Part shown: one piece after another, positions 3,022 through 22,980 of the stretch
Numbering within the stretch: the first letter of the stretch is position 1
Layout of the letters: each line of letters begins with the position of its first letter
Source of the DNA: a virus
IMG/VR virus record: IMGVR_UViG_3300042398_000516
Location: 1-24,454 of that record
DNA length: 24,454 bases
Strand: one strand, 5' to 3'
The notes under the pieces: generated by a model
What the model saw: only the letters and a program-made list of their open reading frames with translations
Told to the model about the DNA's origin: nothing
Databases searched by the model: none
Translations under genes and position numbers: made by a program

Positions 3022-4983
3022 TCAGTCCTTCTTGTAGCGGTGGGTCTCGAACCCAGCCGCAGCCAGTGGCAGGCCGACAGCCCACGACGGGTTGGTGGAC
3101 ATGGCCCCTGCCAGTTGGCCTACCGAGTACTCATCCGTGTCGGGCACTTCGGTAATCAGTTCGTCGTGCACGCGGATGCAGACTTCGTAGCCGAGCTTCT
3201 CTGCGCCGACCATGCCAGTCATGAACACATCGCGGGCGACTGCCTGCACGATGTTCTCGACCAGCTTGCCGCCGTAGGTCTCAACGCGCTCCCACTTGCG
3301 GGTGTATTGGTTCGTACCGTCGAAGGTGATGCGCCCGTCCTCGATTGTCGCGTTCGGGTAGGACAGATAGCGTCCGCTGGGCAGCTTGATGCGCAGCCAG
3401 CCGTCTTTCATGTCGAACTGGAGCATGTCGTAGTGGGACAACTCGTCTGGCTTCCTGATGGCTTGCTTGGCCGACGCCTCGACGCCGTACCAAAGTTTGA
3501 CCACATTGGGGTGCGACTTGCGCCACGCGCTGACCAGTGGCTGGATTTCTTCGTCCGTCATGGCTGCGACCGCAGGGCCGCCCATCGTGCGGAAAGCTCC
3601 GACGCCGCCCTGATAGCCGCACGCCAATTCCATTGTCTTGCCGTACTGGCGCATCGATCCGTCGCCGCTCTTCTTGTTATCGACCACCTCTTCGGGATCG
3701 ACGTTGAAGCCCTTGGCATAGGCGACCACATACAGGTCGTGCCCGACGCCACGGTCGAAGTCACAGAACGCCTTAACCTTCCAGTCCTCGCCCGCCAGCC
3801 ACGCAAGCACGCGGCCCTCGATGTTGGACAAGTCGGCGATGACCAGCTTGCGACCCTCTGGGGCCACCAGACAGCCGCGCACGGCGGACGAGCATAGGTC
3901 GGTCACGTTGTCGAACAGTAGGTCTTCGCAGTCCAGCTTCATGGCGGAGATGCCGGTCTCAATCACGTCGGCGTCCATCGTGGGGCGCGGCAGGTTCTGT
4001 GGCTGGAATATACGCCCCGCATCGCGGCCTGTGCGCGATGCGCCGCAGAACTGTAGTGTGCCGCGCAGCCGCCCGTCAGAGGACGTTGCGTCGAGCAGCA
4101 CCTTATATTTGGCTGGTGAGGTAGCCGCCGCCTGCTGCCGTATTTCCAGCAACTCGCGCACTATGGGCGTCAGGCCGTTGCTGCGGAGCAGCTCGGCGAC
4201 TGTGGACTTAGTTAGGTTCTCTGGCGCAAAATTGTGGTAGTCTCTTAGATACTGTAAGAAGCGCGCGCCCTGCGTCAGCTTCGTTACGTGGCCGCCTGTC
4301 AGATCGGCTGCACGAGTGGCCAGAGTTCCTGAAGTTCTTCGAAAAGCTCGAAGGGCTGCGTGGGCGAGTTCAAGGTCGATGGCGATGCCACGGTCATTAA
4401 CTCCTTGGTCAATTCGCCAAAGGTTCCGCTCACTCCGACTATTGTTCCAATTCGGCAGACGTCCATATACGTCTCGCATCGCGTCCACATCAAGGCGGGC
4501 GTATTCGATGAACTCATTCCATTCGGTGGGGTGACTGACATGATCGGCTCTCCTCAGCTTCATGTTTTTTGGGCGTGGCTTGGTGAACAAGTGTATCAAC
4601 TTCTTGCCCGCCTTGTCTTTAGCTTTGTCGGTCGGCACGCCGAGGACGTCGCACAGCGTGCCCAGCGAGCCGGGGAGGCTGTGGGCGAGCGCCTGCACCA
4701 TCGTGTCGCGTATCTTCTCAACGGGTATGTGGATGCCTCGATGGCGCAGGATTGTGCGGTCGAAGTGGCTGTTGTGGATGACGACGCGGTCGGCGAAGTC
4801 AATCATCGTCTGAAGTCCCTCTGGCCAGTGACGTCGGCCATGTGTGCAATCCCAGACCTCCACAGGCGCATCGTCTACCGCAAACGCCACAAGCAGCACC
4901 TCCGCCTCTTCGGCATAGCGGTGCGTGCCGTGCGTGATCGGCACGGGGCTGTATGTTTCGAGGTCAAGCCAGAGAGTGCTCAC
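3022..4983 (-). CDS. Family A DNA polymerase with 3'-5' exonuclease domain
   Basis: A 653-aa replicative polymerase of the phage Pol I type. The N-terminal proofreading domain has Exo I D-L-E (D7, E9), Exo II H-N-S-H-F-D (70-75) and Exo III Y-A-R-L-D (161-165). The polymerase domain has T-G-R-D-A-G-R (318-324), motif A A-D-L-S-N-I-E-G-R (383-391), motif B R445-x3-K449-x7-Y457 and motif C V-H-D-E (605-608). No 5'-3' exonuclease domain is present, as is usual for phage enzymes. GTG start overlapping the upstream nuclease stop as GTGA; the ribosome site is weak, so translation is probably coupled. It is the centre of a replication operon with the GapR-like, ssDNA-binding, nuclease and helicase genes. 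Confidence 0.97.
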   Translation of the reverse strand: MSTLWLDLETYSPVPITHGTHRYAEEAEVLLVAFAVDDAPVEVWDCTHGRRHWPEGLQTMIDFADRVVIHNSHFDRTILRHRGIHIPVEKIRDTMVQALAHSLPGSLGTLCDVLGVPTDKAKDKAGKKLIHLFTKPRPKNMKLRRADHVSHPTEWNEFIEYARLDVDAMRDVYGRLPNWNNSRSERNLWRIDQGVNDRGIAIDLELAHAALRAFRRTSGTLATRAADLTGGHVTKLTQGARFLQYLRDYHNFAPENLTKSTVAELLRSNGLTPIVRELLEIRQQAAATSPAKYKVLLDATSSDGRLRGTLQFCGASRTGRDAGRIFQPQNLPRPTMDADVIETGISAMKLDCEDLLFDNVTDLCSSAVRGCLVAPEGRKLVIADLSNIEGRVLAWLAGEDWKVKAFCDFDRGVGHDLYVVAYAKGFNVDPEEVVDNKKSGDGSMRQYGKTMELACGYQGGVGAFRTMGGPAVAAMTDEEIQPLVSAWRKSHPNVVKLWYGVEASAKQAIRKPDELSHYDMLQFDMKDGWLRIKLPSGRYLSYPNATIEDGRITFDGTNQYTRKWERVETYGGKLVENIVQAVARDVFMTGMVGAEKLGYEVCIRVHDELITEVPDTDEYSVGQLAGAMSTNPSWAVGLPLAAAGFETHRYKKD

Positions 4984-5657
4984 GAAGCACCCGACTGACC
5001 GTGCTCAAACCGTGCGCTGCGCGCCGCTTCGGCGGCGGCAACAATCTTAGGGTGATTGCCGCTGTAGGCTTTATCGCCGTGATACAGGCCGCCCCAGAAG
5101 CCCAAGGCAAGCGCTTTTTCCCGCGTGCGCTTGGGCCTACAGATGTCTCCGCAAACGCGGTCACCGCGCCCATCAAACTCAATGCCAATCTTATCGCACA
5201 GCGGGCACACACAGAACAGGTACGGGCCGTCCATTTGACCTGCACGGTTCATCTCGTCGCCCTCTTCGCGGTAATACGTGTCTACCGTCCACCATTGGTC
5301 GTAGGGAAGAACTCCGGGGGCCATGTAATCTTCAAAATTGCCCATCACCACATTGTGGTACGGCTCCCCCGCGACAAGCAAGCCCCGCGCGTCGGTGGCC
5401 GCGCCAACGTAAGCCAGCTTCCGGTATGCGTCTTGGTCGCGGTGGTCGAAGTTGTCCGGCTTTACCTCGATCCAATAGTTTTGGTCAGGCAAGAAGAAGT
5501 CTGGAAGATAGTAGCCGAGGCCATATTCGGACAGGTCGAACCCTTCAGGCTCAAACTGCCAGCGCAGGCCGAGATGGTCGAAGAAGACCGCCCAGCGGGC
5601 CTCAAGACGGCTGCGGAAGTGATAACCTTTGTAGCGTGTTTCGATTGCTTTAATCAT
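4980..5657 (-). CDS. PD-(D/E)XK nuclease-like protein with Zn-ribbon
   Basis: This 225-aa protein has an N-terminal restriction-endonuclease-like fold signature: R-S-R-L-E-A-R-W-A (E19), Y-L-P-D-F (D53) and W-I-E-V-K (E64, K66), which together form a complete PD-(D/E)XK site. A cysteine cluster follows, C-V-C-P-L-C at 149-154 and C-G-D-I-C at 169-173, probably a zinc ribbon. The start is ATG at 5657, chosen because GAGGG lies 8 nt upstream; a TTG 15 nt further up has no such site. It follows the double-hairpin gap at 5674-5801, so the ribosome site emerges directly from the base of a long hairpin. It overlaps the polymerase gene as GTGA. The DNA substrate is unknown. Confidence 0.85.
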   Translation of the reverse strand: MIKAIETRYKGYHFRSRLEARWAVFFDHLGLRWQFEPEGFDLSEYGLGYYLPDFFLPDQNYWIEVKPDNFDHRDQDAYRKLAYVGAATDARGLLVAGEPYHNVVMGNFEDYMAPGVLPYDQWWTVDTYYREEGDEMNRAGQMDGPYLFCVCPLCDKIGIEFDGRGDRVCGDICRPKRTREKALALGFWGGLYHGDKAYSGNHPKIVAAAEAARSARFEHGQSGAS

Positions 5658-5673
5658 GATGTTTTCCCTCAAT

Positions 5674-5746
5674 TCTGGTGGACCGCGCCCCGCGAGTTAC
5701 CAACAACGGGGGAGGGACCACCCGGTGCGCGGCGCGGTCCGCCAGA
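5674..5746 (-). other. Long hairpin A; loop antisense to early leaders
   Basis: Positions 5674-5689 and 5731-5746 form a 16-bp GC-rich stem with one G-U pair, enclosing a 41-nt loop. On the plus strand the loop contains ACCAACAAC (5699-5707) and AGGGAC (5713-5718), the same two elements in the same order as the early-gene leaders. The leftward transcript therefore carries their complement. The stem ends 3 nt before the GAGGG ribosome site of the nuclease gene, so folding could also affect access to that site in cis. Confidence 0.65.
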
Positions 5747-5752
5747 AAAGAG

Positions 5753-5801
5753 GGCGCGACGGTTGCTTCCAACTGATGCCGAGGCATCCAACCGTCGCGC
5801 C
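5753..5801 (-). terminator. Hairpin B, possible attenuator downstream of the GapR-like gene
   Basis: A perfect 13-bp stem (5753-5765 GGCGCGACGGTTG with 5789-5801) has a 23-nt loop that itself contains the 6-bp inverted repeat GATGCC-GA-GGCATC (5775-5788). Read leftward it is followed by CTCTTTTCT, a weak terminator tail, 13 nt after the GapR-like stop codon. It could lower transcription into the polymerase genes, or protect mRNA ends. There is no evidence that it stops transcription completely. Confidence 0.55.
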
Positions 5802-5813
5802 GTCCCTATAGCG

Positions 5814-6071
5814 TTAAATTAGATCGAGGCCAATAGCTGACGCGTAGGCATCGACAAGGTAGCGTTCTTCCTGCCGCTTGTCGGGGTCTAGTGCCCGCAG
5901 GCGAAGGACTTGCCGCATGATCTTGACGTCATAGCCGCGAGATTTACCCTCGGCAAAAACGTCTTTGATGTCCTCGGCGATTTCCTTCTTCTGCGCCTCC
6001 ATGTTTTCGATGCGCTCAAAGAGCAGGTTCAGCTCTTCGCCAGCAACGAGGTTGTGTCCGATGTCAGACAT
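5814..6071 (-). CDS. GapR/DUF2312-like nucleoid-associated protein
   Basis: The 85-aa protein is full length for the DUF2312/GapR family. It starts G-H-N-L-V-A-G-E-E-L, then a long helix I-E-N-M-E-A-Q-K-K-E-I-A-E-D-I-K-D-V, then A-E-G-K-S-R-G-Y-D-V-K-I-M-R-Q-V-L-R-L-R and D-K-R-Q-E-E. Known GapR proteins of alphaproteobacteria bind AT-rich, overtwisted DNA ahead of polymerases and stimulate type II topoisomerases. A phage copy probably supports rapid replication or transcription of its own DNA, or competes with the host protein; that is inference. Start ATG, overlapping the ssDNA-binding protein stop as TAATG with no clear ribosome site of its own, so it is coupled. Two hairpins follow it. 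Confidence 0.93.
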   Translation of the reverse strand: MSDIGHNLVAGEELNLLFERIENMEAQKKEIAEDIKDVFAEGKSRGYDVKIMRQVLRLRALDPDKRQEERYLVDAYASAIGLDLI

Positions 6072-6637
6072 TACAGGAGGTCTTCCGCGTCAACCGCAAA
6101 GTCAGCGAACTCGCTGGCTGAGGCTGTGGAGCCGCCGCCAAAGTTCTCACCGTCATTGGCAAACATGACGCCGCGCAGGGTGCAGTTAATGCGCTGACCC
6201 CACTTGTTGTCCTGCGGCCAGATGTCAACCGACGCGTGGACATAGCAGCCTGAATAAATCAGACGCTCGATCTCTGCCTTGCTGGTGACTTCATTGCCGA
6301 GGCGGTCAACGACCGTAGGCTGTGTGCCTGCGTTGCGTGCGGACAGGTAGAACTTGCCCTCAAAGCCCGCATACGGCTGGCGTGTCTTCTTGTTGCGGTA
6401 CTCGGCCTCAACATAGCAGACCTTCTTGTCGTCGGTCAGGGCGTCGATTACCTCTTGCGCCTCGTCCTTCCACTTGTCCTTGGCTGCCTCCAAGATGGCG
6501 TCCTTGATTTGCTTCACGTGTTCGCCCTTGGGGTCAACGATCAGCTTGGCTCCGTAGGCTGGCTCACCTTCGCCAAATGCTTGGGGCGCGCCCAAGGCAG
6601 GGAAAGCGATACGGATATTTTTAAGCATTACTTGCAT
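6071..6637 (-). CDS. DUF2815 single-stranded DNA-binding protein
   Basis: A 188-aa protein of the DUF2815 family, regarded as phage ssDNA-binding proteins of OB-fold type (T7 gp2.5-like). Recognisable parts are N-I-R-I-A-F-P-A-L near the start, A-K-L-I-V-D-P at about 30, Y-R-N-K-K-T-R-Q-P-Y in the middle and I-Y-S-G-C-Y-V-H-A-S-V-D-I-W-P-Q. The tail is Gly/Ser-rich and acidic, ending A-E-D-L-L, typical of SSB tails that recruit partners. ATG start with GAGGAA 7 nt upstream, which overlaps the stop codon of the DUF2800 gene. It would coat ssDNA for the family A polymerase encoded downstream. Confidence 0.93.
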   Translation of the reverse strand: MQVMLKNIRIAFPALGAPQAFGEGEPAYGAKLIVDPKGEHVKQIKDAILEAAKDKWKDEAQEVIDALTDDKKVCYVEAEYRNKKTRQPYAGFEGKFYLSARNAGTQPTVVDRLGNEVTSKAEIERLIYSGCYVHASVDIWPQDNKWGQRINCTLRGVMFANDGENFGGGSTASASEFADFAVDAEDLL

Positions 6638-9123: not shown

Positions 9124-9140
9124 TAGTAATTTCCCTTCGT

Positions 9141-9185
9141 GTTGTTGGTGACACGGTCTCTAAACCAGTTCGTTGCAGGCGTCAA
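9141..9185 (-). promoter_or_regulatory. Early promoter P1 with conserved leader
   Basis: Read leftward: -35 TTGACG (9185-9180), 17-nt spacer, -10 TAGAGA (9162-9157), 7 nt, then the leader ACCAACAAC (9149-9141) and the ribosome site AAGGGA. The 29-nt -35 to -10 region differs from P2 at only two positions. It should drive the recombination and replication block 8806 to about 561. Confidence 0.75.
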
Positions 9186-9190
9186 CCCCC

Positions 9191-11275
9191 TTACGTGTAA
9201 AAAATTACAATGCCGTTCTTTATTTCTATCAACGGGTCTTTACGCTTGACCAGCGACTGGATCGCACGGTCCAGATCGCGGCGGCGCAGGTCGCGCTTCG
9301 GCGGCTCTGGCTTCGTCATGGCGGCAAAGCACTTGTCGAACAGTTCGGTCAGTGGCGCACGCTCAACGCCCGCATACTGGTCCTCGATAATCTCAAGCAC
9401 GTGGCGCTCATGTGGGCCGAAGCGTTGGGCCTTTGGACCCGTCTCCTGAACCACCGGCACAGGCACGTCAGCCTCGACGGCAACGCAGCTCGTGATTGGG
9501 TCGCCATCGGCGTCCACGCCGACGACTATGGTTTCCAGACGGAAGCCCCACTTCAGGCCGTCATCGCCGTCCTTCATCTTCGTGATGCGCAGCTCGCGTG
9601 TGCCGTTCTCATACTTCAAGACCTCAAGCTCGGCGTCGGCCGCCGCACGCTTGCCTGACCAGCCGCGCACGCCCTTCGACGCGTCCTTGCCGCTGTGGTC
9701 CACCATTAGGATCGTCGCGCCTGTGGCTGTCTCCAATGCGCGTGCGTTGGCCAGCGCCAGACCGACGTCCTCGGAGCTGTTCTCGTTCGCGCCGGGCGTG
9801 ACCTGCGCCATCGTGTCAACGATGATGACGTCCGCGCCGCCTGATGCTGCCACAGCCGCAGCCAGTTCGGTCACGTCCTCGGACAGCAGGAAGTTCGGCG
9901 GCACGGTCAGCAGGCCGATGTCAACGTCGGCCGGATCAATCTTGTGGTGCTTGAGGTACGCCTTCAGACGCTTGCTCATGCCCTTACCGCCCTCGGCGGC
10001 GATGATTAGCACGCGGCCCTTCTTCGTACGGTTACCGCGCCACGCGATGCCCATAGCGATTGCGTAAGCCATGTCGATGGCGACAAAGGTCTTGCCTGAG
10101 CCTGACGCGCCGAACAGCACGATAAGCCCAGCGTCAGGCAGCACGTTCTTAATCAGCCAGCCGCCCGGCTCCATCATGATGCTGACGGCGAGTGACGTGA
10201 TCGGGAAGCGGCCCGTATACTCTTCGGGTGTGAACATGCCGAGTGCAGGCGTGGCGGCAACCGCGCTCATTGCTGTGCGCAGATCGTCAACGGTTGCCGC
10301 CAAGGTGGGGCGCGGGGTGGATGATGCGCCAGCCTCCTTTGCCATCTTGATGACGGACGCCATAGTCACCTGACGGTGGCCCGAACCCTTGCGGCGCTCG
10401 AAACTGTCCCATTGCGTCCGTAAACCTTCCTCGCTGGGGTACTTCGACCCCTGCGCCGACCAGTCGTTCCATATCTCAAAGCCAGTGTCGTCACCATCGC
10501 ACTCGTGGTGCAGGGCCATGCCGACCCTAATCCAGTCTTCGCGGGGCATGTCCGCGTCGAGCACGGACAGCAGTTCCTCCATCTGGGAGATGCTCAGGCC
10601 GATCTTCGGCTCGCGGCCGACCATGAAGTCGTCAGGGTCAGCCACGCGTTGCTGTGTCGCGGGGAAGCGCGCCGCGCAGAGCGGTGCCACCAGCGTGTCC
10701 AGATCGGCGATGGTGTCCTCAAGGCCGAGTAGGTCGGTGTATGGCATGGCGTTGCCGGTGAAGGTCACAAAGCCGTTGCTGGTGAAGACTTCAAAGCCGT
10801 AGGGGTTGCCCTCGGTTGGCGACTTACGGTTGCCATAGGAGCCACGCACGAAGGCACGGACGCCCATGCCGCTGGGCGAGTACTCGGCGTAAGTCGAGCT
10901 GGCGATGCGCTCGATCTCTGGCGGCAGCTTACCCTGCGCGTCAACGCAGTTGTCGAAGTCGAGCGCAGTGATGCCGAACTCTGGCATGAGCGCCAGACCG
11001 ATGCCGGTGAAGCCACGGCGCGCGGCCGCGTCGCGGGCTGCGGCGAAGGTGGTCATGCGGCCACGGTCGTCAATGCCGCCCTGCTTGCCGTGGCGCTTTC
11101 CGCCGTCGGCATAGTAAGGCACCTTCAGCGGCTTGCCGTTGGGGTTGTCGGGGTCTTGTTCGAACCGCCAGATTAGCCAGCCCTGTAGCTCCCGCAGCTC
11201 GGCGGGGGCCAACACGGACGTGTTGTGCGGTGTAATTGGTTGCACGTTGCCCACAGGCGGTCCCTCCTCGCTCAT
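9191..11275 (-). CDS. Primase-helicase: AEP-like N-terminus, PriCT-2, RepA-type ATPase
   Basis: A 694-aa fusion. Residues 25-200 resemble a bifunctional primase/polymerase (AEP) domain, with G-K-P-L-K-V-P-Y (48-55) and the catalytic-type I-T-A-L-D-F-D (102-108). Residues 230-300 match PriCT-2 (E-D-W-I-R-V-G-M-A-L-H-H, then I-W-N-D-W-S). Residues 380-590 are a RepA/DnaB-like ATPase with Walker A G-A-S-G-S-G-K-T (389-396), Walker B V-I-I-V-D (483-487), V-D-H-S-G-K (525-530) and R-G-W-S-G-K-R-A-A-A-D (537-547). It would open and prime the replication fork. The start is ATG at 11275, 4 nt after the repressor-like gene; a TTG at 11293 lies inside that gene and is less likely. Its 3' end carries a possible operator of P1. 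Confidence 0.93.
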   Translation of the reverse strand: MSEEGPPVGNVQPITPHNTSVLAPAELRELQGWLIWRFEQDPDNPNGKPLKVPYYADGGKRHGKQGGIDDRGRMTTFAAARDAAARRGFTGIGLALMPEFGITALDFDNCVDAQGKLPPEIERIASSTYAEYSPSGMGVRAFVRGSYGNRKSPTEGNPYGFEVFTSNGFVTFTGNAMPYTDLLGLEDTIADLDTLVAPLCAARFPATQQRVADPDDFMVGREPKIGLSISQMEELLSVLDADMPREDWIRVGMALHHECDGDDTGFEIWNDWSAQGSKYPSEEGLRTQWDSFERRKGSGHRQVTMASVIKMAKEAGASSTPRPTLAATVDDLRTAMSAVAATPALGMFTPEEYTGRFPITSLAVSIMMEPGGWLIKNVLPDAGLIVLFGASGSGKTFVAIDMAYAIAMGIAWRGNRTKKGRVLIIAAEGGKGMSKRLKAYLKHHKIDPADVDIGLLTVPPNFLLSEDVTELAAAVAASGGADVIIVDTMAQVTPGANENSSEDVGLALANARALETATGATILMVDHSGKDASKGVRGWSGKRAAADAELEVLKYENGTRELRITKMKDGDDGLKWGFRLETIVVGVDADGDPITSCVAVEADVPVPVVQETGPKAQRFGPHERHVLEIIEDQYAGVERAPLTELFDKCFAAMTKPEPPKRDLRRRDLDRAIQSLVKRKDPLIEIKNGIVIFYT
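9197..9208. promoter_or_regulatory. Possible operator GTAAAAAATTAC upstream of P1
   Basis: The sequence has GTAA/TTAC symmetric ends around an A-run. It lies 12 bp upstream of the P1 -35, within the last codons of the primase-helicase gene. The identical 12-mer occurs 11 bp upstream of the P4 -35. It could be an operator or an A-tract UP element. Confidence 0.4.
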
Positions 11276-12005: not shown

Positions 12006-12170
12006 TCAGTGTAACGTGCCGTCTGGGTCGTTGGCGACATTATAAATCGCCCGCTGTATGGCCTCGTGCATGGTGATGATGTCTTCGCTCTCGGCGGCGA
12101 TGTATGACGCCTCCGTGAATATATCGGCCAGCACGGCGTTAACCTTCGCGGCGAGTTCTTTTTCATCCAT
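12006..12170 (-). CDS. Acidic 54-aa protein, function unknown
   Basis: Start ATG at 12170, chosen because GGGA lies about 8 nt upstream within the shared ACCAACAACGAAGGGA leader; longer in-frame starts would run through that leader. The protein is a single acidic helical unit (M-D-E-K-E-L-A-A-K-V-N-A-V-L-A-D-I-F). Not recognised. It is the first gene of a subgroup leading to the HTH regulator and primase-helicase. Confidence 0.75.
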   Translation of the reverse strand: MDEKELAAKVNAVLADIFTEASYIAAESEDIITMHEAIQRAIYNVANDPDGTLH

Positions 12171-12184
12171 GTGTATGTCCCTTC

Positions 12185-12206
12185 GTTGTTGGTCCGTATG
12201 CAATAC
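12185..12206 (-). promoter_or_regulatory. Fifth copy of the early leader (P5), promoter unclear
   Basis: Read leftward, ACCAACAAC (12193-12185) is followed directly by GAAGGGA and the ATG at 12170. Seven nt upstream of it is GTATTG (12206-12201), a poor -10, and I see no good -35. It may be a weak or activator-dependent promoter, or a conserved mRNA element without its own promoter. Confidence 0.45.
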
Positions 12207-13007: not shown

Positions 13008-13021
13008 TTTGTAGTCCTCTT

Positions 13022-13066
13022 GTTGTTGGTGAGACTGTCACTAAACCAGTTCGTTGCAGGTGTCAA
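13022..13066 (-). promoter_or_regulatory. Early promoter P2 with conserved leader
   Basis: Read leftward: consensus -35 TTGACA (13066-13061), 17-nt spacer identical to that of P1, -10 TAGTGA (13043-13038), 7 nt, leader ACCAACAAC (13030-13022), then GAGGA and the ATG at 13007. The promoter lies within the last codons of the DnaA-like gene, and its -10 includes that gene's TAG stop. Confidence 0.78.
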
Positions 13067-13286
13067 CAGGCTTATTTAACGCATGCACGATGGTGGTATG
13101 GCAGCGGTTCATTATCCTGCCGATCTCATTCGTTGAGTAGCCCTCCTCTCTGAACATCAGGATGCACAGGCGGCGCACGCCGACCAGATGCTTGAGCCGC
13201 GAGGGGCCGAGGATGTCATGCACCGTGTAGCCGTGCTCGCTTGCGATGGCGTCGATAGCGGCGAGGTTCTTTTCTCTGGGTGTCAT
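13041..13286 (-). CDS. Stand-alone DnaA domain IV-like DNA-binding protein
   Basis: The 81-aa protein resembles the C-terminal DnaA-box-binding domain of DnaA without its AAA+ part. V-R-R-L-C-I-L-M-F-R-E-E-G-Y-S-T-N-E-I (37-55) is followed by G-R-I-M-N-R-C-H-T-T-I-V-H-A (56-69), matching the G-x-x-F-G-G-R-D-H-T-T-V signature with Cys for Asp. Similar small proteins occur in alphaproteobacterial phages and may bind DnaA-box-like sites to regulate host or phage replication. ATG at 13286, overlapping the upstream micro-gene as ATGA, with AAGGAT about 8 nt upstream. Its 3' end contains P2. Confidence 0.85.
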   Translation of the reverse strand: MTPREKNLAAIDAIASEHGYTVHDILGPSRLKHLVGVRRLCILMFREEGYSTNEIGRIMNRCHTTIVHALNKPVDTCNELV

Positions 13287-13561: not shown

Positions 13562-13695
13562 TTACTTTTCTCCCGTATATAAAACCAGTCAGCCCACGAA
13601 ATGCGGCCAGACCTGCTCCCCGAAAAGTAGAAGCAGCTTCTGCCCTTGCGTTTGTCAGCCATCTCAATACGCTTAGTTTGAATTGGGTTTGTCAT
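13558..13695 (-). CDS. 45-aa basic protein, function unknown
   Basis: Start ATG at 13695 (M-T-N-P-I-Q-T-K-R-I-E-M-A-D-K-R-K-G), overlapping the upstream stop as ATGA with GGGAG 8 nt upstream; an in-frame extension upstream would lie inside the neighbour. Basic and aromatic, ending Y-I-R-E-K-S-K. The last codons double as the ribosome site of the next gene. Not recognised. Confidence 0.68.
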   Translation of the reverse strand: MTNPIQTKRIEMADKRKGRSCFYFSGSRSGRISWADWFYIREKSK

Positions 13696-13886
13696 CGCCC
13701 CTTCTCCCATGTCAGCGCGTCGGCTTTGCCTGTGAACACTAACCACGCCGCCTTAACCCTCGAGCAGAACGACGGGTAGCCGTATGCCCTAGCCGGGACC
13801 CATGCCATGCCGGGTGGCACGCGGGTCGTGTTCTGGTTGGCGGTTTCGATAATCTCGCGCACCGATATTATGTTCGGGTATTTCAT
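13692..13886 (-). CDS. 64-aa protein, function unknown
   Basis: Begins M-K-Y-P-N-I-I-S-V-R-E-I-I-E-T-A and has a Pro/Tyr-rich middle P-P-G-M-A-W-V-P-A-R-A-Y-G-Y-P-S-F, ending W-E-K-G-R. The middle resembles small phage proteins of the P-x-G-W-V-P-A-R type, which I cannot name. ATG start overlapping the upstream stop as ATGA, with GGGAG 8 nt upstream. Confidence 0.72.
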   Translation of the reverse strand: MKYPNIISVREIIETANQNTTRVPPGMAWVPARAYGYPSFCSRVKAAWLVFTGKADALTWEKGR

Positions 13887-14254
13887 TGCCCCTTCTCCCG
13901 TATCTCCAGCCCACGGGCTTCCAGTTTGGCGCGAAGATACTTAGCATCGTGCTGACCTTGCTCTTGGTCGCTGCTTAATTCCATGTCCAAAAGAATATTT
14001 ACCAGCGGGTCAGGCTTGGGCTTGGGGATGATGAAGCGGTTGAGCGAATGGGAATAAATCCGGTTGTTAGGGTTTAAGTATGCTTCCACCGCATCGCTCA
14101 CCTCTTGCTTAAAGGCTTCGTGCTGTTCGATGGCGCGGCATAGGGCTTCGTCCATGATAAGTCCGCGCATAATACGGCGTGTAAGTTCCTTTTCCCCTTC
14201 CTCGCGCTCAACCTCATTCACTAGCGCCAAGGCTTTTGCTTCAATGTCTGTCAT
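13883..14254 (-). CDS. 123-aa protein, function unknown
   Basis: Start ATG at 14254 with AAGGA about 7 nt upstream and an ATGA overlap; upstream in-frame codons lie inside the neighbour and are ignored. The N-terminal half is helical and acidic (L-A-L-V-N-E-V-E-R-E-E-G-E-K-E-L). A central L-C-R-A-I-E-Q-H-E-A-F-K-Q-E-V-S-D-A-V-E resembles a motif in several phage hypothetical proteins. It ends E-I-R-E-K-G-Q. Function not known. Confidence 0.75.
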   Translation of the reverse strand: MTDIEAKALALVNEVEREEGEKELTRRIMRGLIMDEALCRAIEQHEAFKQEVSDAVEAYLNPNNRIYSHSLNRFIIPKPKPDPLVNILLDMELSSDQEQGQHDAKYLRAKLEARGLEIREKGQ

Positions 14255-16389: not shown

Positions 16390-16407
16390 GGTGGTGTCCC
16401 TTAGTTC

Positions 16408-16451
16408 GTTGTTGGTCTGATTGTCTGTAAACAGTTTGAGGGTAGGGTCAA
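16408..16451 (-). promoter_or_regulatory. Early promoter P3 with conserved leader
   Basis: Read leftward: -35 TTGACC (16451-16446), 16-nt spacer, -10 TACAGA (16429-16424), 7 nt, leader ACCAACAAC (16416-16408), then AAGGGA and the ATG at 16389. The spacer shares TACCCTCAAAC with P4. Confidence 0.7.
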
Positions 16452-20418: not shown

Positions 20419-22980
20419 ATGATCGAGGAAGAAGACATCATCGAGGGCGAAGTCGTTGAGTTCGACGGCGAGGACGTGACCGACGTTGAGGACACCGAGG
20501 ACGGTGGCGCTATCGTCACGCTCGACGAGGGTGGACCCGCCGCAGGCGAGAGCAGCTTCTACGACAACCTCGCAGAAACTATGTCCGAACCGGACCTAAA
20601 GTCACTGGCGTCGAAGTTCCTCGAACTGATCAGCCGCGACAAAGAGGCGCGCAAAAAGCGCGACGAGCAGTACGAAGAAGGCATCCGCCGCACTGGTCTG
20701 GGCGATGACGCCCCCGGCGGCGCGCAGTTCAACGGCGCGTCGAAGGTCGTCCACCCGATGATGACCGAGGCGTGCATCGACTTCGCATCACGCGCCATCA
20801 AAGAGCTTCTGCCACCGCAGGGTCCAGCAAAGGACTTGATCGAGGGCGAAGTCACGATGAAGAAAATCCAGAAGGCGAAGCGCAAGACTTCGCTGATGAA
20901 CTGGCAGCTCACCGTGCAGAGCCAAGACTTCCGCTCCGAGCTTGAGCAGCTACTGACGCAGGTGCCACTGGGCGGCGCGCAGTACCTCAAGATGTCGTGG
21001 GACGAGGCGCGCAACCGCCCCGGCTTCCTGTTCGTCGCAATCGACGACATGTATCTGCCGTTCGCGGCGACCAACTTCTACACCGCGCAGCGCAAGACGC
21101 ACGTGCAGTATCTGACGCAGCTCGACTATGAGATGCGCGTCGAGAGCGGCATGTATCGCGACGTTGACCTGACGCCAGCCGGTCTTGAGCCTGAGCGCTC
21201 GGCAGCCGACGTGGCCAACGACAAGATCGAGGGCCGGTCAGACACCAGCTACAACGAGGACGGTCTGCGCACCGTGTTCGAGTGCCACGTCATCGCCGAC
21301 GTCGAGGGCAACGGCAACGCGCCGTACATCATCACCATCGACAAGCCATCGAGCAAGGTGCTTGCGATATACCGCAACTGGGACGAAGAGGACGAGAGCC
21401 GCGAGCCGCTGGACTGGTTCGTCGAGTTCCCGTTCATCCCGTGGCGCGGCGCGTATCCAATCGGCCTGCCGCACATGATCGGCGGCCTGTCCGCCGCCGC
21501 GACTGGCGCTCTGCGCGCACTGATGGACAGCGCACACATCCAGAACGTGCCGACGATGCTCAAGCTGAAGGGCGGCACACGCGGCGGCCAGTCGCTGAAC
21601 ATCCAGCCGACACAGGTCGAAGAGATCGAGGGTGGCCTCAACGTGGACGACGTCCGCAAGCTGGCCATGCCAATCCCGTTCAATCCGCCATCGCCGACCC
21701 TGTTCCAACTGCTCGGCTTTGTGGTCGATGCGGGCAAGGGCGTGGTCCGCACGTCGATGGACAACCTCGCCGACCAGAACCCGAACGCACCAGTCGGCAC
21801 GACGCTCGCCCTAATCCAAGAGGGCATGACCGTGTTCTCCTCAATCCACGCGCGTCTGCACAGCGCAATGGCGCGCACGCTGCGCATCCTGCACCGCCTC
21901 AACGCGATGTATCTGGACGACGCGGACGTGAAGCACGAGGTCGGCGAAGTGCTGGCCACCCGCGCAGACTTCGAAGGCCCGATGGACGTCGTGCCTGTGT
22001 CCGACCCCGCGATCTTCAGCGAGAGCCAACGCTTTGCGCAGGTGCAGGCCGTGTCGCAGCGCGCCGCTGCGCTGCCGCAACTGTACAACCAGCGCAAGGT
22101 CGAGGAGCGTCTGCTTGAGACGATGCGCGTCCCGAACCCGAAAGAGCTGCTCGTCCCGCCGATGGAGCCGAAGCAGCAGAACGCGGTGAACGAGAACGTC
22201 GCGGCCACGATGGGCCGACCGATCGTCGCCTTCCCAGAGCAGGACCACATCGCCCACCTCAAGACGCACCTTGCGTACATGACGAACCCCGCGCTCGGCG
22301 CGAGCCAGCTCATCGCGCCGTCATACCTGCCAGTGATACTGGGCCACATCAAAGAGCACCTTGCGTTATGGTATGCGTCAACCGTGCTCGATTTGGCCGA
22401 AGAGACGTCGGGCATCGACATCAGTGAGGACATGAAGAACCTCAAGGACAACGAAGCCAAGCGGGCGTTCGACCGCATGCTGGCCGAGGCGTCTCAGACT
22501 GTGGTCACCGACGCGACTGAGGTGTTCGCATCGCTGCCGCCTGTCATTGCGCAGGCCATGCAGATGATGCAGCAGCTTGCACCGCAGCCGCCGCAAGACC
22601 CACGCGTCGCGCTTGAAGGTCAGAAGCTACAGGCACAGCAGCAGCGCGATCAGGCGCAGATGCAGCTCGACGGTCAGAAGATGCAGATGCAAATGCAGAA
22701 AGATCAGACGGCCATGCAGATCGAGGGCCAGAAGATGCAGGCTGACGCGGTGAAGACCCAAGCCGAGATGCAGCTTGAGGCGCAGAAGCTACAGATCGAG
22801 CAGCAGCTTGAGCAGTTGAAGCAGGACCGCGAGGACGCCCGCACATCGGCTGAACTCAACGCCCGCATGACCATGAACCAGCAAGACAACCAAACGGCCA
22901 TGCAGCTTGCGCAGGCCGAGATCATGTCTGGCGAACGCATCGCAGTGTCCACGGGCACTGGGATAAACCCACAACCATAA
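20419..22980 (+). CDS. Portal protein with repeated C-terminal helix
   Basis: The 853-aa protein follows the terminase genes and has portal-like features: an acidic N-terminal arm (E-E-E-D-I-I-E-G-E-V), a core with K-V-V-H-P-M-M-T-E-A, the I-P-W-R-G-A-Y-P-I-G-L-P-H-M-I region, and a helical stem. Residues 734-805 are four 18-residue repeats rich in Gln and Met, which would extend the helical barrel. The length resembles long portals of podovirus type such as P22 (725 aa) rather than those of siphoviruses. It forms the dodecameric ring through which DNA enters. ATG with AAGGA about 9 nt upstream. Confidence 0.9.
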   Translation: MIEEEDIIEGEVVEFDGEDVTDVEDTEDGGAIVTLDEGGPAAGESSFYDNLAETMSEPDLKSLASKFLELISRDKEARKKRDEQYEEGIRRTGLGDDAPGGAQFNGASKVVHPMMTEACIDFASRAIKELLPPQGPAKDLIEGEVTMKKIQKAKRKTSLMNWQLTVQSQDFRSELEQLLTQVPLGGAQYLKMSWDEARNRPGFLFVAIDDMYLPFAATNFYTAQRKTHVQYLTQLDYEMRVESGMYRDVDLTPAGLEPERSAADVANDKIEGRSDTSYNEDGLRTVFECHVIADVEGNGNAPYIITIDKPSSKVLAIYRNWDEEDESREPLDWFVEFPFIPWRGAYPIGLPHMIGGLSAAATGALRALMDSAHIQNVPTMLKLKGGTRGGQSLNIQPTQVEEIEGGLNVDDVRKLAMPIPFNPPSPTLFQLLGFVVDAGKGVVRTSMDNLADQNPNAPVGTTLALIQEGMTVFSSIHARLHSAMARTLRILHRLNAMYLDDADVKHEVGEVLATRADFEGPMDVVPVSDPAIFSESQRFAQVQAVSQRAAALPQLYNQRKVEERLLETMRVPNPKELLVPPMEPKQQNAVNENVAATMGRPIVAFPEQDHIAHLKTHLAYMTNPALGASQLIAPSYLPVILGHIKEHLALWYASTVLDLAEETSGIDISEDMKNLKDNEAKRAFDRMLAEASQTVVTDATEVFASLPPVIAQAMQMMQQLAPQPPQDPRVALEGQKLQAQQQRDQAQMQLDGQKMQMQMQKDQTAMQIEGQKMQADAVKTQAEMQLEAQKLQIEQQLEQLKQDREDARTSAELNARMTMNQQDNQTAMQLAQAEIMSGERIAVSTGTGINPQP
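22618..22833 (+). repeat. Four in-frame 54-bp repeats in the portal gene
   Basis: CAGAAG recurs at 22621, 22675, 22729 and 22783, exactly 54 nt apart. Each unit encodes 18 residues starting (G/A)-Q-K-(L/M)-Q, for example G-Q-K-M-Q-M-Q-M-Q-K-D-Q-T-A-M-Q-I-E. The nucleotide copies have diverged but the register is exact. Confidence 0.8.

Follow-up and report, generated by a model that had tools for sequence, protein, structure and literature searches.

Why does the loop of an intergenic hairpin in a virus genome carry, in antisense orientation, the sequence with which the leftward early units of the same genome begin? The window analysed here was the entire virus record IMGVR_UViG_3300042398_000516 (24,454 bases), and the hairpin lies in the gap between a GapR-like gene and a nuclease-like gene. 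The initial annotation had suggested that the hairpin RNA pairs with the early leaders and slows their translation.

The nonamer ACCAACAAC was found in five exact copies in the window, against 0.11 expected from dinucleotide shuffles, and five or more copies were seen in 0 of 100 shuffles. Matches with one mismatch were mildly enriched (8 vs 4.4). One copy is on the plus strand (5699-5707) and is the antisense copy; the four minus-strand copies (9141-9149, 12185-12193, 13022-13030 and 16408-16416) are the 5' ends of leftward early units. Each of the latter lies a few bases 3' of a sequence resembling a promoter (TTGAC-N17-TA...., or a weaker form of it), placing the leaders at predicted transcription starts, and is followed by a Shine-Dalgarno (SD) sequence and then ATG. 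The leftward units had been described as opening in this way, with no exact copy other than those in the leaders and the loop, and both descriptions held. The leaders begin 20-30 nt before the ATG, and no attenuator lies between.

9124-9149, minus strand: early leader 1, ACCAACAACACGAAGGGAAATTACTA then ATG; it heads the operon holding the hairpin, which lies ~3.4 kb into this unit
12170-12193, minus strand: early leader 2, ACCAACAACGAAGGGACATACAC then ATG
13008-13030, minus strand: early leader 3, ACCAACAACAAGAGGACTACAAA then ATG
16390-16416, minus strand: early leader 4, ACCAACAACGAACTAAGGGACACCACC then ATG

The genes from the 9141 leader to the hairpin are a 105-aa gene and those for a DUF2800 exonuclease, an Enc34-like ssDNA-binding protein and the GapR-like protein. 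Several other repeats were noticed in the window. A 57-nt promoter-leader duplication (9137-9193 and 13018-13074, 86% identical) includes TTGAC, the -10 region and ACCAACAAC. A second repeated start region, GGGAGAAGGGGCRATG, is present in two copies (13685-13713 and 13876-13904, minus strand) without the ACCAACAAC leader, and a similar sequence, CGGGAGGTGGGGCAATG, was seen in the relative L222. Four 54-nt repeats of in-frame length (22611-22832, plus strand) lie near the end of a large rightward gene (20419-22980).

The antisense ACCAACAAC and AGGGAC (5713-5718) were located, as annotated, inside the loop of an inverted repeat with arms at 5666-5693 and 5727-5754 (86% complementary); the loop has UCCCUCCCCCGUUGUUGGU. 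The folding energy of the leftward strand of the element was -87.5 kcal/mol (z = -5.6). The hairpin, given earlier as 16 bp, is actually longer, as further pairs are added at its base, and a second hairpin, equally conserved, was found directly upstream of it. The element and its neighbours are, in leftward order:

5814-6071, minus strand: GapR-like DNA-binding protein gene (Pfam PF10073, E = 5e-26), the constant neighbour on the upstream side of the element
5805-5833, minus strand: putative promoter-like TTGGCC-N17-TATAGG that overlaps the GapR-like gene at its end; transcription would be expected to start at the edge of hairpin 1
~5753-5801, minus strand: hairpin 1, stem of ~13 bp, directly after the GapR-like gene, with a CUCUUUU tract after it; the 49 relatives show compensatory pairs
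5666-5754, minus strand: hairpin 2, at whose base CCCUC (5750-5754) pairs with GAGGG (5666-5670), the SD of the downstream gene; it holds a conserved C.A mismatch
5712-5718, minus strand: loop block 1, GUCCCUC, complementary to the leader SD AGGGA(C) and also to the nuclease-gene SD GAGGGA
5699-5707, minus strand: loop block 2, GUUGUUGGU, antisense to the 5' ends of the early leaders
4980-5657, minus strand: nuclease-like gene, downstream of the element; in relatives swapped for a DNA polymerase, a 97-aa protein or others

The pairings of 10 + 6, 10 + 6 and 9 + 5 bp given in the initial annotation for three leaders were correct and can be read from the sequence, but the fourth leader at 13022 was missing from that list. 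The loop had also been regarded as exposed. The antisense blocks do lie in the loop, but weak internal pairs are predicted there, and the mean unpaired probability of the loop blocks was ~0.67 in single-sequence models. Hairpin 1 is putatively terminator-like or a 5' stabiliser. No terminator was found after hairpin 2, so a free small RNA would need processing. The motif TTGGNN-N17-TATA was present in 45/49 relatives. Its TTGG overlaps GapR codons, which partly fix the motif, and transcription would be expected to start at the edge of hairpin 1; the promoter at the gapR end is only putative. No match to 5500-6100 was obtained at E<=1 by cmscan with all Rfam 15.

Relatives were collected in several ways. 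A search of IMG/VR with the nuclease protein gave 9 close relatives, whose upstream gaps keep both hairpins with a loop that differs between groups. A stem-only pattern, with the loop left free, matched 74 virus contigs, 65 of which were members by loop and context; the 9 others (L033, L040, L051, L062, L063, L074, L078, L084 and L090) were without loop and context and were dropped. Further relatives were added by a GapR-like protein search, giving a total of 49 distinct elements (IMG/VR), and all element members were uncultivated virus contigs. Across these 49, the element is directly 3' of the GapR-like gene wherever gapR is intact, and the downstream gene varies. Among the matches listed, hits of the hairpin pattern in genome contigs appeared to be chance in G+C-rich genomes. 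In GenBank phages, nothing of the element was found at blastn sensitivity beyond short weak matches, and the nuclease had only distant relatives there.

Several unusual arrangements were observed. In L036 (IMGVR_UViG_3300008266_001284), the GapR-like gene is apparently truncated up to hairpin 1, with hairpin 2 and the loop intact, reflecting either a natural deletion or an assembly joint. L231 and L232 have a more distant two-hairpin element after gapR, with a ~50-nt loop and no recognisable leader match; another leader may be used. In the related Caulobacter phage RW, which shares the DUF2800-DUF2815-GapR-polymerase synteny, the corresponding gap contains two tandem hairpins as well; the second hides the polymerase SD and has a short loop. 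The gene starts of RW showed no shared leader; long loop and shared leader are therefore absent together.

Leaders of the relatives were collected by a general pattern, a 5' nonamer RYCARYAAY followed by an SD and a start codon. For ACCAACAAC-complementary loops, 21/21 distinct leader contexts were ACCAACAAC (gene strand). The leaders also matched in 4/4 cases for the ATCAACAAC loop, in 3/4 for the GTCAGCAAC loop (L055/L222), the fourth pairing via G.U, and in 51/63 for the ATCAGCAAC loop, 12/63 being not exact. The agreement extends into the SD: in L010, 16 consecutive bases of the loop are complementary to the leader of its own operon, through GGAG (SD). In L362, whose stem is diverged, the loop is complementary to both halves of the altered leader, ATCAGCAA and GAGAGCAAC; the SD block of this leader is changed (GAGAGCAAC / GGAGCAAC), and the loop has the matching GTTGCTCTC.

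In a duplex-energy matrix, every loop class bound most strongly to the leaders of its own class; in the column of the single E-type leader, the B and C loops bound about equally well. On the ssb-gapR tree, the loop/leader classes needed 5 changes, and the single C, D and E branches were apart from the A/B split, so that matched changes arose at least 3 times. In the larger records (39-60 kb), the several copies of the leader motif share one strand, and the loop was the only match on the other. Ranking of all gene starts within one genome by duplex energy was noisy, because the loops are G+C-rich, and was not taken as main evidence. Independent drift of the loop had been named beforehand as the observation that would speak against the pairing; it was looked for in the relatives, and loop and leader were found in lockstep instead. 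The base-pairing of loop and leader put forward initially is thus supported by related phages, which change both together at several positions on at least 3 tree branches and conserve the stems on the predicted strand.

Two local features of the leaders were also observed. On the contig of L285, one ATCAGCAAC-type (B-type) leader (G003:36130-36145) stands amid ACCAACAAC-type (A-type) leaders, and was possibly imported along with its gene. In L007-L010 and L030-L102 (e.g. L010:6468-6513), TTGCAAY-N6-TTGCAT-like repeats precede ATC-type leaders, over the -35 region, and perhaps represent an operator or a promoter-specific motif.

Both stems showed many two-sided changes, as counted in a sequence alignment of the 49 elements with no tree-aware null, for example at columns 56-67 in hairpin 1 and, in hairpin 2, C-G/U-A at 125-208, G-C/A-U at 136-197 and C-G/G-C at 144-189. 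The same alignment contained 40 G.U cells vs 5 A.C cells, and the leftward RNA is therefore favoured as the selected strand. The RNA structure is conserved on the leftward strand, and its loop co-evolves with the leaders. Nearly all members keep a C.A mismatch in the long G+C-rich stem of hairpin 2, which possibly limits RNase III cutting or marks a protein contact.

From the sequences we infer that a stable RNA would exist, would pair with the leaders in cells and would be repressive. Our preferred reading, to which we give a probability of roughly 0.6, is that the leftward intergenic RNA at 5658-5801 serves the phage as an antisense riboregulator, which targets the shared early leader with its SD and lowers early translation. 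The loop of hairpin 2 would display two blocks, one for the leader 5' end (ACCAACAAC) and one for the following SD region. Transcribed as a late part of the early unit, or else from the putative promoter at the gapR end, the RNA would base-pair in trans with the leader of every early operon, including the one that encodes it. Such pairing would span each leader, from the base at which transcription is predicted to start up to and including the SD, and block translation initiation. Early translation would then be lowered once the transcript has accumulated enough, amounting to negative feedback on the RNA's own unit, and hairpin 2 would also hide the SD of the directly downstream gene. A role as an early-gene riboregulator is likely on this comparative evidence, and the specific action as a brake on early translation, proposed at the outset, is plausible because the predicted pairing would leave neither the ribosome site nor any other part of the 20-30 nt leader free.

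The loop might instead serve as a sensor of early transcription. Hairpin 2, together with a loop-tail pseudoknot in ATCAGC-type phages, would keep the start of the downstream gene (nuclease or polymerase) closed until abundant early leaders bind the loop and free that gene. The downstream SD is indeed paired within the base of hairpin 2. In ATCAGC-type phages, moreover, the loop 3' end is complementary to the bases preceding the downstream start codon, and the two co-vary: GATAACC occurs with TTATCAGC in 11 and GATACAC with GTATCAGC in 19, one ACTC loop being a misfit, and in L362 the tail AGAGCAAC matches its own loop. Loop end and tail thus vary together, so that two alternative pairing partners are available to the loop, the early leaders and its own downstream start. 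However, a leader bound in the loop would not alone open the SD-holding stem, the cis pairing in the window's class is limited to its SD/anti-SD part, and the downstream gene is not conserved. The sensor is considered unlikely.

Structured antisense RNAs that lie within the transcript that they control, and that are complementary to more than one site in phage transcripts, include c4 of P1/P7 and CA of N15. The CI RNA of P4 terminates transcription by pairing with its own transcript at two sites, seqA and seqC (PMC4825925). Like CI, the element would be a structured RNA inside a controlled transcript, that of one of its own targets, and its complementarity likewise extends to multiple sites in the transcripts of its phage, namely four leaders in the window and several leader motifs in the larger records. 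By analogy, the element RNA could act on nascent leaders and trigger (Rho-dependent) termination in the early units. But only 20-30 nt separate the leader start from the ATG, with no attenuator there, and since the pairing covers the SD, blocking translation directly is the simpler route, of which polarity could be a consequence. CI acts by termination in one immunity region, whereas here several separate early units have the same 5' leader and their SDs are covered. Attenuation of the P4 kind is accordingly rated improbable.

A shade less probable still is a shared DNA site, that is, a phage protein that binds ACCAACAAC/ATCARCAAC as double-stranded DNA at the early starts and at 5699, with covariation reflecting protein specificity. 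Similarity among the copies would be maintained by a DNA site as well, and the leaders are located at predicted transcription starts. Such a site leaves unexplained the matched SD block (L010, L362), the hairpin with compensatory pairs and its one-strand G.U bias, the loop-tail covariation and the invariable antisense orientation. The tandem hairpins of phage RW, at the same place and without a long loop, would fit a purely cis-acting device in which a terminator and an SD-hiding hairpin uncouple gapR from the next gene and the leader similarity is secondary; this fails to explain the lockstep of the loop with leaders 3-9 kb away, and we consider it very improbable. Chance complementarity, for which the mild enrichment of one-mismatch matches is the sole point, is refuted by the loop/leader covariation, with at least 3 matched changes on the tree, and disagrees with the 5 exact copies against 0.11 expected.

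The antisense riboregulator that we favour resembles several known RNAs in part. The alphaproteobacterial sRNAs alpha-r14 / NfeR1 keep a C-rich anti-SD unpaired in hairpins and silence mRNAs at the translation initiation region (PMC10746234). The element likewise appears to be a hairpin exposing an anti-SD, with block 1 complementary by sequence to the leader SDs. Alpha-r14 has three hairpins, each with an unpaired CCUCCUCCC, whereas the element has two hairpins and one long loop, in which a variable anti-SD block is joined to a target-specific block co-evolving with the leader; alpha-r14 is host-encoded, the element phage-encoded. Among phage antisense RNAs on phage mRNA, P22 sar interferes with the initiation of ant translation, and lambda OOP is another (PMC12197685); each is described with a single target, whereas the element matches a leader common to several operons. 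IsrK of Gifsy-1 is a short phage RNA that acts in trans on a translation-blocked phage mRNA of the same locus (PMC4825925), but it activates one mRNA and has no shared leader set of the kind matched by the element. Searches of the open-licence literature turned up no description of an antisense element that matches a leader common to several phage operons.

Phage antisense RNAs have so far mostly had one target or region; here, one RNA would face the leader of several early operons. It is an even bet, in our judgement, that one co-evolving antisense hairpin switches several leader-marked early operons together, with no need for a protein repressor, and is coupled via the same loop to translation of the next (replication) genes. 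Since natural compensatory changes show the pairing bases, such an early-to-later switch is directly testable, and complementarity between a repeated 5' leader and the loop of a phage hairpin may serve as a search principle.
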